Below, piece after piece: positions 21,783 to 48,319 of a stretch of DNA of 64,000 bases; position 1 is the stretch's first letter; every line of letters begins with the position of its first letter. Both the position numbers and the translations under genes were made by a program. The notes beneath the pieces were generated by a model. That model searched no databases. It had not been told where the DNA came from and saw nothing but the letters and a program-made list of their open reading frames with translations. Origin of the DNA: an uncultured Haliea sp. (GTDB lineage Bacteria; Pseudomonadota; Gammaproteobacteria; Pseudomonadales; Halieaceae); the NCBI GenBank assembly GCA_947258585.1, contig CAMYIZ010000030.1, forward strand, positions 124,001-188,000, in the 5' to 3' direction.

Positions 21783-21909
21783 CACTCGCCGGCGGCACCT
21801 CGCCGGCCACACCTCGCCGGCCGCACACTCACAGGTCCTACCTCGCGGGCGACACCTCGCCGGCCGCACCTCGCCGGCCGCACCTCGCCGGCCGCACCTC
21901 GCCGGCCAC
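21783..21909. repeat. 14-bp tandem repeat (about nine units)
   Basis: The unit ACCTCGCCGGCCGC is repeated head to tail between ptsO and mgtE. Exact or nearly exact units start at 21797, 21811, 21840, 21854, 21868, 21882 and 21896; degenerate units are at 21783 and 21825. Each unit contains the palindrome GCCGGC. The period of 14 is not a multiple of three and no gene spans the array. Confidence 0.9.
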
Positions 21910-39294: not shown

Positions 39295-39350
39295 TGCCGC
39301 AGCGTCGGCTGTCGCAGCAACGGCTGCCGCAGCATCGGCTGCCGCAGCAA
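39295..39350. repeat. 15-bp tandem repeat (about 3.7 units)
   Basis: Units CGGCTGTCGCAGCAA (39306), CGGCTGCCGCAGCAT (39321) and CGGCTGCCGCAGCAA (39336) follow a partial unit, in the gap between moeB and doxX. A minus-strand frame across it would read Ala-rich repeats, but no gene start uses it. Confidence 0.8.
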
Positions 39351-45397: not shown

Positions 45398-46002
45398 GGC
45401 GCTCCAGCCTGGCTTTGCTGCGCCTGCTGCCGCTTTTGCTGCCGCTGTTCCTGGCTGCCTGCGCCACCGGACCCGCGCCGGTGGCCGAACATCCCTGGCA
45501 GCTGCGGACCCAGCAACTGGCGGCCCTCGAGAACTGGACCGCGCGCGGCAAGATCGCCCTGCGCAGCGGCCAGCAGTCCGAATCCGCCAGCCTCGACTGG
45601 CAACAGCGCGGCAGCGACACGCGGCTCCAGCTCGCCGGCCCCATGGGCCTGCAGGCCACGGAAATTCACAGCAATGGCCGCGAGCTGCTGGTCCAGCGCG
45701 GTGAAGAACTTACTCGGCTGGACATCACCACCCCGGATGCATTGCGCCTGCAGACCGGCTGGGACCTCCCGCTGCAGGCCCTGCCGTTCTGGCTGAAAGG
45801 CATGCCCGCGCCGGAACCGCGCGCCACCGCCGTGAATATTGCTGACGAACTGCTGCAACAGCTCGACCAGAACGGCTGGGTTATTCGCTACGAGCGCTAC
45901 CAACAGTTCGGTGACTACCTGCTCCCCACCCGCCTCAGCATCGAACGCGGGGACACCAGGGCGCGGGTTATTATCCAGGACTGGCAGCCGGGCGCTGTGT
46001 AA
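45394..46002 (+). CDS. lolB: Outer-membrane lipoprotein receptor LolB
   Basis: The 202-residue lipoprotein has a signal peptide ending in LFLAAC (Cys23) and the LolB fold segments NWTARGKIALRSGQQSESASLDWQQ, GLQATEI and LPFWLKGMPAPE. LolB accepts lipoproteins from LolA and inserts them in the outer membrane. It starts with GTG 45394 overlapping the TPR stop, and its stop overlaps the ispE ATG (TAATG). Confidence 0.94.
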   Translation: MRRSSLALLRLLPLLLPLFLAACATGPAPVAEHPWQLRTQQLAALENWTARGKIALRSGQQSESASLDWQQRGSDTRLQLAGPMGLQATEIHSNGRELLVQRGEELTRLDITTPDALRLQTGWDLPLQALPFWLKGMPAPEPRATAVNIADELLQQLDQNGWVIRYERYQQFGDYLLPTRLSIERGDTRARVIIQDWQPGAV

Positions 46003-46832
46003 TGGCAGCCGCACTGACCCTGCTGTCCCCCGCCAAACTGAACCTGTTCCTGCATGTCACCGGCCGCCGCAGCGACGGCTACCACAACCTGCAGACGGTA
46101 TTCCAGCTGCTGGACTGGGGCGACAGCATGCGCTTTACCCCCGACCACAGCGGCCAGGTACAGCTGGACATGCCGGGCTTCGCGCTGCCCGCCGAGGACA
46201 ACCTGATCCTGCGGGCCGCCCACCTGCTGCAGCGCGGGAGCCAGGGGGCCCGGATTTCCTGCGAGAAACGCATTCCCATGGGCGGCGGGCTGGGGGGAGG
46301 CTCCTCCAATGCCGCCACCACGCTGCTGGCCCTGAATCACCTCTGGCAACTGGGGCTCGCGCCGGCTGAACTACAGGCCCTGGGCGCCCGCCTCGGCGCC
46401 GACGTGCCGGTGTTTGTCGGCGGCCACAGCGCCTGGGCGGAAGGGATCGGCGAACAGCTCACACCCATCGCCCTGCCGGACGCCTGGTACCTGGTCATCA
46501 AGCCCGGCTGCTCAGTGCCCACCGGGGAAATTTTTTCCAGCCAAGAATTGACACGGGACACCTCGCCCAGCACAATAGCCGCCTTTTTTCAGGGGGTCCA
46601 CCGCAACGACTGCGAGCCGGTTGTGGTGGCCAGATACCCTGAAGTCGGAGCAGCGCTGCGGTGGCTGCGGACCTTCGCCGAGGCGAGGCTGACCGGCACC
46701 GGCGCCTGTGTTTTTGCCGCTTTTGGCAGCCAGCGTGCAGCGACAGCGGTGCAGCAGCAGGTGCCGGCACAATGGAAGAGTTTCACTGCCCGGGGCACGA
46801 ATGTGTCACCGGTACTGAAGGCCCTGGCCTGA
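46002..46832 (+). CDS. ispE: 4-diphosphocytidyl-2-C-methyl-D-erythritol kinase
   Basis: The 276-residue GHMP kinase of the MEP isoprenoid pathway has LLSPAKLNLFLHVTGRRSDGYHNLQTVFQ, the ATP loop IPMGGGLGGGSSNAATTLLALN and LTGTGACVFAAF. It is coupled to lolB and followed after 17 bases by tRNA-Gln, an arrangement also found in pseudomonads. Confidence 0.97.
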   Translation: MAAALTLLSPAKLNLFLHVTGRRSDGYHNLQTVFQLLDWGDSMRFTPDHSGQVQLDMPGFALPAEDNLILRAAHLLQRGSQGARISCEKRIPMGGGLGGGSSNAATTLLALNHLWQLGLAPAELQALGARLGADVPVFVGGHSAWAEGIGEQLTPIALPDAWYLVIKPGCSVPTGEIFSSQELTRDTSPSTIAAFFQGVHRNDCEPVVVARYPEVGAALRWLRTFAEARLTGTGACVFAAFGSQRAATAVQQQVPAQWKSFTARGTNVSPVLKALA

Positions 46833-46849
46833 GGTAAACAACAGATTAT

Positions 46850-46924
46850 TGGGGTGTCGCCAAGTGGCAAGGCACCGGGTTTTGATCCCGGCATTCGTAG
46901 GTTCGAATCCTACCACCCCAGCCA
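46850..46924 (+). tRNA. tRNA-Gln (anticodon TTG)
   Basis: The 75-nt sequence folds as a complete cloverleaf with encoded CCA. The acceptor TGGGGTG pairs with CACCCCA including the U1-A72 pair typical of tRNA-Gln; the anticodon stem CCGGG/CCCGG holds TTTTGAT, and the T-arm is GTAGG-TTCGAAT-CCTAC. It lies between ispE and prs and is followed by tandem repeats that each copy its 3' end. Confidence 0.97.
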
Positions 46925-47080
46925 TACAGAAGAACTTCGTGGCAATTCCGCGGTATGCGGTTGCAACGAAGGAGGAAAGCCGACCGGTAGGGTTCGAACA
47001 GGTTCGACCGCTGCCGCAGGCCGTGGGGCGGAGGAGCAACGCGACGCCGGGCGCAGCCCGAGGGCCGAAGGCCCGAGTCA
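46907..47080 (+). repeat. 174-bp tRNA-Gln-associated repeat, copy 1
   Basis: The unit begins inside the 3' part of tRNA-Gln and runs to just before the next copy of that 3' end. It differs from copy 2 at about six positions (roughly 97% identical). It contains a 99-nt spacer with GGTAGGGTTCGAAC, which resembles the tRNA T-arm, followed by the start of a 75-nt tRNA-like module. Confidence 0.95.
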
Positions 47081-47098
47081 ATCCTACCACCCCAGCCA
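47024..47098 (+). other. 75-nt tRNA-like module 1
   Basis: The module starts with TGGGGCGG, nearly the 5' acceptor of tRNA-Gln, and ends with CCTACCACCCCAGCCA, identical to the tRNA 3' end. The total length is exactly that of tRNA-Gln. The eight-base ends pair with one C/A mismatch. The interior has two hairpins, CGGGC-GCA-GCCCG and GGGCC-GAA-GGCCC, in place of the D, anticodon and T arms, so it is not a decoding tRNA. Confidence 0.7.
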
Positions 47099-47254
47099 TA
47101 CAGAAGAACTTCGTGGCGATTCCGCGGTATGCGGTTGCAACGAAGGAGGAAAGCCGACCGGTAGGGTTCGAACAGGTTCGACCACTACCGCAGGCAGTGG
47201 GGCGGAGGAGCAACGCGACGACGGGCGCAGCCCGAGGGCCGAAGGCCCGAGTCG
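47081..47254 (+). repeat. 174-bp tRNA-Gln-associated repeat, copy 2
   Basis: Second full unit, in direct tandem with copy 1. In this copy CCACT and AGTGG (in the stretch before the module) pair perfectly, whereas copy 1 has one wobble and one mismatch at the same stem. The period of 174 is 58 codons, so several frames stay open, with no sign that they are genes. Confidence 0.95.
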
Positions 47255-47272
47255 ATCCTACCACCCCAGCCA
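47198..47272 (+). other. 75-nt tRNA-like module 2
   Basis: Same design and same length as module 1, with only two substitutions, one in the bases flanking the first hairpin and one in the linker before the tRNA 3' end. Both GC hairpins and both acceptor-like ends are unchanged. Confidence 0.7.
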
Positions 47273-47347
47273 TACAGAAGAGCTTCGCAAGCTGAGCGCA
47301 TGAGGCGGCGGTTGCGGAGCTGACGGCCGACCGGCCCACCCCAGCCA
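47255..47347 (+). repeat. Degenerate third copy of the tRNA-Gln repeat
   Basis: The first 33 bases match the other copies with one change, then the sequence diverges, keeping GCCGACCGG. It ends in CCACCCCAGCCA (47336-47347), a fourth occurrence of the tRNA-Gln 3' terminus, 24 bases before the prs start. Confidence 0.85.
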
Positions 47348-47371
47348 TGTATTCCCCAGGAGAGAAGTGCC

Positions 47372-48319
47372 GTGTCCTCCAAGCTGATGGTCTTCACCGG
47401 TAACGCCAATCCGGAGCTGGCCCAGAAAATCGCCAACCGGCTGTACTTGTCCCTGGGCAAGGCCAGCGTCGGCAAGTTCAGCGATGGCGAGATTGCGGTA
47501 GAGCTGAACGAAAATGTTCGCGGCAAGGACGTCTTCGTGGTGCAGCCGACCTGTGCGCCGACCAACGACAACCTGATGGAGTTGCTGGTCATGATCGACG
47601 CGCTGCGACGGGCGTCGGCTGCGCGGATTACCGCGGTGGTGCCCTACTTCGGGTACGCCCGCCAGGATCGCCGGGTACGCTCGGCGCGGGTGCCGATCAC
47701 CGCCAAGGTCGTGGCTGACATGATGGTGACAGTGGGGGTCGACAGGGTACTCACCGTCGACCTGCACGCCGAGCAGATCCAGGGCTTCTTCGGCTGCCCG
47801 GTAGACAACGTCTACGGCTCGCCGGTCCTGAACGAGGACATCCTGGCCTGCAATTACGATAACCTGATCGTGGTGTCGCCCGACATCGGCGGTGTGGTCC
47901 GGGCGCGGGCAATCGCCAAGCAGCTGGACGACGCCGACCTGGCGATCATCGACAAGCGCCGGCCGCAGGCCAACGAGGCCCAGGTCATGAACCTGATCGG
48001 CGAGGTCGACGGCCGCATCTGCCTGCTGGTGGATGACATGGTCGACACAGCGGGAACCCTGTGCAAGGCCGCCGACGCCCTCAAGGAGCGCGGCGCGAGC
48101 AAGGTTCTGGCCTACTGCACCCATGCGGTGCTGTCCGGCCGCGCCCTGGACAATATTATGGGCTCCCAGCTCGACGAGCTGGTGGTCACAGACACGATTC
48201 CCCTGAGCGCGGAAGCCCGGGCGATATCGAAGATCCGCCAGCTGACCATTTCGGATCTGCTGGCGGAATCGATACGCCGGGTGTCCAACGAGGAATCCAT
48301 CAGCGCGCTGTTCCAATAG
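47372..48319 (+). CDS. prs: Ribose-phosphate pyrophosphokinase
   Basis: The 315-residue enzyme makes PRPP from ribose 5-phosphate and ATP, feeding nucleotide, histidine and NAD synthesis. Motifs are [56 protein letters not shown] and the PRPP loop [17 protein letters not shown]. It starts with GTG 47372 after CCAGGAGAG, immediately beyond the tRNA-derived repeats. Confidence 0.98.

Follow-up and report, generated by a model that had tools for sequence, protein, structure and literature searches.

The array behind tRNA-Gln(UUG) in the window (the whole 64,000-nt stretch of DNA analyzed here) adds a divergent new member to a known kind of repeat, and its units almost certainly belong to the tRNA-linked repeat (TLR) family, which is represented in Rfam by RtT (RF00391). 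The conserved object is a predicted six-helix fold with strong covariation, and the comparison of units suggests that each one carries a sense copy as well as a complementary copy of part of the adjoining tRNA. We favor, with some reserve, the reading that the array is a co-transcribed structured RNA repeat which would be processed at tRNA-like 3' ends and gained or lost at the 3' ends of tRNA genes. TLRs were first described in 1978 and have no known function according to PMC8144298. A fold backed by covariation, together with an arm that changes with the host, makes this decades-old repeat testable, and the pairing of sense and complementary tRNA copies in each unit is a clue to the role of these old repeats.

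The host gene lies at 46850-46924 on the forward strand (ARAGORN; Rfam tRNA model, 64.4 bits). The gene order is lolB - ispE - tRNA-Gln - array - prs - L25 gene, with ispE at 46002-46832 (+) and prs, the gene for ribose-phosphate diphosphokinase with a GTG start, at 47372-48319 (+). The tRNA leads into direct repeats at 46906-47079 and 47080-47253, which are 174 nt each and 97% identical (array score of 715 in Tandem Repeats Finder). The motif CCACCCCAGCCAT occurs four times at the array with spacings of 174, 174, and 75 nt. Measured from the CCA end of the tRNA to its own CCA, unit 1 occupies 46925-47098 and unit 2 occupies 47099-47272 (both +). A 75-bp remnant of a third unit follows at 47273-47347 (+); it consists of the spacer and CCCACCCCAGCCA, the antisense arm and the hairpins being gone, and a similar remnant is present in the same-genus genome G004. 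The repeat search thus confirmed the preliminary description of this DNA, which had reported two full 174-bp repeats and a degenerate third behind tRNA-Gln. Two other tandem arrays were seen in the window, one at 21785-21907 (14-bp unit, 8.7 copies) and one at 39295-39349 (15-bp unit, 3.7 copies).

Each unit is built in the order spacer, antisense T arm, sense copy of the T-arm 5' half (positions 49-57), a variable stem-loop insert (hairpins P3-P6), and terminal tRNA copy. In unit 1, the antisense arm GGTAGGGTTCGAAC (46986-46999, +; direct reading, 5' strand of P1/P2 in the model) is the reverse complement of the tRNA-Gln T arm GTTCGAATCCTACC, save for one G-U. The 5' half of the T arm is copied in sense as AGGTTCGA at 47000-47007 (+; direct reading, conserved alignment columns), and hairpin P3, CCGCTGCC GCA GGCCGTGG, lies at 47008-47026 (+), as judged from covariation and the comparison of tRNA-Gln units. 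Covariation and the match of model R2 (see below) place P4 at 47027-47048 (+, limits approximate), P5 (GGGC GCA GCCC, GGGCGCAGCCC) at 47049-47059 (+), and P6 (GGGCC GAA GGCCC, GGGCCGAAGGCCC) at 47062-47074 (+). The terminal copy AATCCTACCACCCCAGCCA (47080-47098, +) is identical to positions 58-76 of the tRNA-Gln 3' end over 19 nt. The equivalent segments of unit 2 are the antisense arm at 47160-47173, the sense copy at 47174-47181, P3 at 47182-47200, and the terminal copy at 47254-47272 (all +), the last being exact over 18 nt. The two GC hairpins noticed earlier as kept in both copies are indeed present and recur in unit 2; the antisense and sense T-arm segments, which both recur there as well, had been missed. 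As the sense copies run up to position 57 and resume from position 58, the hairpins interrupt the tRNA sequence at the 57/58 junction, which the antisense arm spans.

The assignment to the TLR family was made with three models. The Rfam RtT model aligns with unit 1 over its full length (1-130 of 130) at 15.3 bits (E 3.2), which does not reach its gathering score of 45; the Rfam model alone makes no call. The same model gave matches at E<=0.01 in 80 of 369 class genomes, 23 of which have a match over the gathering score and 57 none, and in 14 control genomes it matched in E. coli only. Model R1 was made from 65 aligned units (2 from the window, 4 from the same family, 2 from E. coli tyrT, and 57 from the class). 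Model R2 was built on 130 R1 matches from 97 of 127 class loci (L033-L159), none of them from the window's family, and its alignment was fitted by R1, which held six family units and the two E. coli tyrT units among its 65. On the 64-kb window, R2 found unit 1 (46973-47098, 46.0 bits, E 1.1e-9) and unit 2 (47147-47272, 43.9 bits, E 3.9e-9), these E-values being rough by the tool's own statement, and gave no further match up to E 10. The third-unit remnant was not found by the family model (R1: 4.5 bits, E 0.16). R2 also detects E. coli TLRs, none of which gave it parameters, at these places: tyrT (4), rrnB 5S, lysT/W/Y/Z/Q, lysV, and the argQ-argV cluster (3). In the control set of 25 unit-free tRNA-Gln loci from the family (L006-L016, L018-L031), R2 gave a single match of 12.6 bits (E 0.47). 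Like TLRs, which come as one to several units, the window array lies directly 3' of a tRNA on the same strand, and the 3' ends of its units equal that of the upstream tRNA, over 19 nt in unit 1 and over 18 nt in unit 2. The preliminary description had drawn a parallel to the E. coli tyrT repeats that yield rtT RNA; this was right and is stronger than claimed, since R2 places both in the same family. It had also regarded a tRNA-Gln version with whole tRNA-sized modules as, to its knowledge, undescribed. A tRNA-Gln version is not new in kind, as tRNA-Gln is the nearest upstream tRNA in 38 of the 150 RtT matches listed.

The six-helix structure was set by hand in place of the RNAalifold result and then tested. 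On the MAFFT alignment, 83.9% of the cells are paired compared with 67.3% in shuffles, and cells with a double change number 421 compared with 154 in shuffles (0/500), while slid controls gave 94-129. Every pair of P3, P4, and P6 has changes on both sides in this alignment. The R1-fitted alignment gave 88.8% paired cells and 932 double-change cells versus 310. RNAalifold, run on the MAFFT alignment A2, returned only 14 pairs, in which the sense T-arm copy pairs with the terminal copy, so that the insert sits in the loop of a T stem. This pairing and the six-helix structure compete for the terminal strand, and the pair at alignment columns 56/172 is formable in 53 of the 65 sequences, which makes the T-stem pairing a possible alternative. 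In single-sequence folding of the window units, folds with P1 enforced lie 5.6 and 10.7 kcal/mol above the minimum-energy fold, and the acceptor half of P1 is not complementary in these units. The conflict between the two kinds of evidence is real, and we trust the comparative evidence over single-sequence folding. G-U pairs outnumber A-C mismatches 76 to 45 when the outer P1 pairs are left out (P5 21:4, P3 4:20); this excess is weak, and hence the strand of the RNA is not proven by wobble pairs.

The minimum-energy fold of the window units includes the acceptor-like stem of the preliminary description, which had read the end of each repeat as a whole tRNA-sized module of 75 nt; such a module would have a real acceptor-like stem and be processed as a tRNA-like RNA. 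In the two full copies, TGGGGCGG (at 47024 and at 47198) indeed starts exactly 75 nt ahead of the terminal A, and it can pair with CCACCCCA at seven of eight positions. We compared ten tRNA-Gln units of the family, leaving out G028 with its decayed 3' end for the spacing, which gives nine units from eight loci (L310 and L312 duplicate the values of G518 and G520 and add no further counts). The 75-nt spacing and the TGGGGCGG stem are kept in four of the nine, namely the two window units, G004, and G024 (6-7 of 8 pairs), but are lost in G025, G518, G520, G525, and G450 (1-5 of 8 pairs). Across the tRNA-Gln units of the family, the stretch that runs from GGTTCGA to CCA measures between 82 and 101 nt, and the tRNA-sized spacing is therefore limited to a few close relatives. 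Moreover, TGGGG is the 3' arm of hairpin P3, which is present in all ten tRNA-Gln units and uses the same bases with compensatory changes (CCACTGCC/GGCAGTGG, CCAACGC/GCGTTGG, CAAACGCC/GGCGTTTG, and CTAACGCC/GGCGTTAG), whereas the stem of the module lies outside the covariation-supported fold. Relatives that keep neither the 75-nt spacing nor the hairpins had been named as the outcome that would refute the module; the spacing is lost in five of nine, while the hairpins are kept. Spacing and covariation in relatives thus rule out the tRNA-sized module as a conserved feature despite single-sequence folding, and processing as a tRNA-like RNA of this size is highly improbable.

The family is seen across many Gammaproteobacteria. 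Among the 150 RtT matches listed in the class survey, 120 have a same-strand upstream tRNA in the fetched stretch and 30 have none there; in two cases, the tRNA is at least 700 nt away. In 86 of these 120, the match ends in at least 17 nt of the 3' end of that tRNA (84 in exactly 18-19), and the other 34 share less than 17 nt with it, which speaks against the reading that we favor. A second count took copies of the host's last 16 nt with at most two mismatches within the loci brought in by the RNA models, and thus misses units on contigs without the tRNA; it gave 170 terminal copies in 96 genomes behind 11 isotypes (Ser 64, Gln 43, Arg 18, Tyr 17, Val 12, Lys 7, Glu 2, Pro 2, Gly 2, Phe 2, and Asp 1). 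The match covers exactly 18-19 nt in 143 of these copies, 20 nt in one, more in none, and fewer in 26. The typical terminal copy hence starts at T-loop position 58 (143/170).

TLR cores were also observed in three viral contigs of IMG/VR (L306 1142-1176, L307 12230-12570, and L308 10307-10343). One of them lies behind a tRNA-Thr (ARAGORN), and tandem copies end like the 3' ends of tRNA-Lys and tRNA-Ser; these cores may mark a prophage border or be phage-borne. Since integrases typically go with repeats of a tRNA 3' end, and TLR cores occur on three viral contigs, one could take the array for an ordinary att-site duplication left at tRNA-Gln by a departed phage or island. The unit, however, has a conserved six-helix fold and a host-complementary arm, neither of which is, to our knowledge, a feature of att duplications, and we find such an origin hardly credible.

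Across the units compared, the antisense arm is complementary to the T arm of the host and, in many relatives and more weakly, to its acceptor. The arm fits its own host above the hosts of other isotypes in 83 of 86 units (mean of 16.7 versus 13.1 of 24). For a test by position, 119 of the 170 copies were reduced to 101 (one per genome and host 3' end), of which 94 were placeable, and the arm was placed by a host-independent motif. With host shuffles that ignore the relatedness among genomes, the own host exceeded 1000 of 1000 shuffles at acceptor positions 66-72 (0.486 versus a shuffled mean of 0.362), at T-stem positions 63-65 (0.652 versus 0.338), and at T-stem positions 49-51 (0.595 versus 0.303; n = 94 throughout). 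The sense copy at 49-51 matches the host less than the arm does (0.45, shuffled 0.285).

These values leave room for a reading in which the arm, being complementary to host positions 49-72, would have the host as its target: it might guide insertion at 57/58, or it might have a regulatory effect by opening the T arm of the precursor tRNA. Such a role would agree with the closer tracking of the host by the arm than by the unit's own sense copy at 49-51, and with the cells in which host and terminal copy differ outside position 58, where the arm fits the host in four of four. It would also agree with the place where the arm most often departs from complementarity (GA), namely 57/58. Most of the match is, however, equally explained by pairing inside the unit (P1, P2), and the four discordant cells are few. 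The 19 discordant cells at position 58 do not decide (12 host, 5 terminal copy, 2 neither), the arm base there being mostly the generic one. We know of no guided enzyme for such insertion or regulation and regard an action of the arm on its host as doubtful. A host-complementary arm is not mentioned in the portions of PMC8144298 and PMC4986893 covered here, nor did literature searches over titles and the opening lines of abstracts bring up a paper on it; Rudd 1999 and Egan and Landy 1978 may have it.

Presence of units is patchy even among close relatives. In five of the seven genus mates of the window's genome, the gap from tRNA-Gln to prs is 29 nt and holds no unit; G004 has one unit and a remnant at tRNA-Gln, and the contig of G002 ends there. 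Behind tRNA-Tyr, there is a unit in G004 and an exact empty site in the window's genome with a closely similar following sequence. The sequence after this empty site (L289 versus L290) is like the flank downstream of the G004 unit and unlike the flank in G001, G003, G005, and G007; this would be in keeping with an earlier loss in which the 19-nt repeats recombined. Close relatives thus offer precise empty sites at tRNA-Gln, tRNA-Val, and tRNA-Tyr, and gain and loss are not told apart by them. A second array of the window's genome stands behind tRNA-Val(GAC) on contig C6 (L167 984-1383) and comprises a complete unit (R2 E 9e-4, R1 E 0.0047) plus a truncated one (R2 E 0.11). It is shared by G004 and has a different form in G002, and no unit was seen there in the other five genus mates. 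The T stem of this tRNA-Val reads GCCAG/CTGGC in the two genomes with this array form (G000 and G004) and GGCGG/CCGCC in the other six genus members, including G002. By eye, each unit of the tRNA-Val array starts with a terminator-like hairpin and a T run in its spacer. Across the family, R1, which includes six units from 5 of the 140 genomes, has a match in 63 of the 140, in 23 of 28 genera, and in three of eight genomes of the genus. Genera rich in units include those of G425 (14 matches) and G437 (6). A pattern scan of named records gave matches in Parahaliea maris and Halioglobus pacificus.

One genome (G072; L081 and L131), the only one of its genus in the set, carries inserts behind tRNA-Gln and tRNA-Val that are 94% identical, while each arm fits its own host. 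The fit of the tRNA-Val arm includes position 59. This likeness could come from movement or from gene conversion. In 56 same-genome pairs with different isotypes, the mean identity is 0.708 compared with 0.653 between genomes. The G072 pair is the only one at 0.94, the others reaching 0.83 or less, and recent movement therefore looks rare. The inserts of G066 are 96% similar, but both hosts are tRNA-Ser with the same 3' end. The comparison of inserts that singled out G072 and G066 left out six of the 86 units, in which the sense motif is missing. We considered intragenomic similarity as a general proof of mobility and rejected it, as G072 alone is clear.

Sporadic presence, precise empty sites, and the host-fitting arms on the shared insert of G072 would also suit a selfish element at the DNA level, that is, a mobile, non-autonomous repeat that would enter at the 3' ends of tRNAs and restore the tRNA with its terminal copy. 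The fold would then be needed only as DNA in mobility, with transcription incidental. Terminator-like hairpins with a T run between tRNA and unit, seen by eye at tRNA-Val in the window's genome and G004 and at several Gln(CUG) and Ser loci, point the same way, as transcription of the units there needs read-through. On the other hand, no integrase or transposase is found among the ORFs nearest the window array, a single pair among 56 is so similar and gene conversion explains it too, and TLR RNAs of defined size are reported from E. coli (PMC8144298). A selfish DNA element is thus possible but on the unlikely side, and the same grade applies to a fold that serves only as DNA. A more speculative picture, which we propose only tentatively and consider rather improbable, joins mobility with the arm: TLRs would be mobile tRNA-end elements that carry a complementary host copy across the insertion point 57/58, their RNA or DNA would be directed to or act on the host tRNA, and the arm would be rewritten on a change of host.

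In the processed co-transcript that we prefer, the unit would act as RNA and would be transcribed together with the tRNA, as no terminator-like site was found in between and prs follows the tRNA after about 29 nt in five same-genus genomes. A scan of 46700-47420 found no promoter- or terminator-like site. The antisense arm would hold two tRNA fragments (P1, P2) around the hairpins, and the enzymes that mature tRNA would cleave at each tRNA-like CCA end. Units would multiply or vanish via recombination between the 19-nt repeats, and new tRNA genes would be reached by insertion at the tRNA 3' end. Membership, fold, host tracking, and the precise presence or absence of units are shown by the sequences themselves; we infer transcription and processing at this locus, and likewise that units change and spread by recombination and insertion. 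TLR RNAs have been detected in E. coli (PMC8144298) and Actinobacillus (PMC4986893). For the window array, a processed co-transcript is the somewhat better bet, whereas for spread by insertion, we see the chances as even. As the array separates tRNA-Gln from the start of prs and the scan gave no promoter- or terminator-like site, it could also serve mainly as a leader or attenuator of prs. TLRs, however, stand behind many tRNAs and 5S and before other genes, for example on the side of E. coli nadA, murB, and xapR, and five genus mates have no unit here, which makes a prs leader quite unlikely.

Taken together, the fold, the 57/58 boundary, the host-tracking arm, and the patchy presence form a wider pattern of interest, to which earlier work on such repeats can be related. 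PMC8144298 describes 22 TLR sequences at ten loci of E. coli, in which 18-19 bp equal the 3' end of the upstream tRNA or rRNA. According to this 2021 study, the RNAs of the three TLRs linked to 5S are processed and bind both Hfq and CsrA, RNase E has been suggested for the 3' cut, and an early claim that TLRs help in recovery from starvation was retracted; the phenotypes that it reports are only modest. A covarying tandem GA motif has been noted in RtT (PMC7657543), attenuator-like repeats similar to rtT were placed in BIMEs by their authors (PMC2965389), and a length difference in tandem repeats is on record for the Salmonella rtT RNA (PMC2658671).

Among these systems, the RrA, RrB, and RrF sRNAs of the E. 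coli rrn operons are TLRs behind 5S. They differ from the window units in their 5S host, and production by terminator read-through and processing is described as a feature of these E. coli RNAs (PMC8144298). R2 finds the rrnB copy at 53.7 bits (L219 6799-6931), which is the DNA between terminators T1 and T2; the rrnB T1T2 cassette, widely used in cloning vectors, carries a TLR (PMC8144298). Arrc20 and Arrc21 of Actinobacillus pleuropneumoniae, which we liken to the window units by description, are Rfam RtT members near tRNA genes with positive Northern blots, but they are described as lying upstream of tRNA-Asn and tRNA-Lys genes, unlike the window units, which lie downstream (PMC4986893). With Rfam RtT, the window units share a full-length alignment with the same segments in order, although below the gathering score. 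The closest likeness is to the TLRs of E. coli K-12: a tandem array behind a tRNA with 18-19 bp of the upstream tRNA or 5S 3' end (PMC8144298), a unit length of 174 bp here and about 178 bp at tyrT, and one fold by which R2 finds both. The window units differ from them in their host, a tRNA-Gln in another order of Gammaproteobacteria, in the acceptor half of P1, which is not complementary, and in P5, which reads GGGC/GCCC instead of the commoner GCCC/GGGC.
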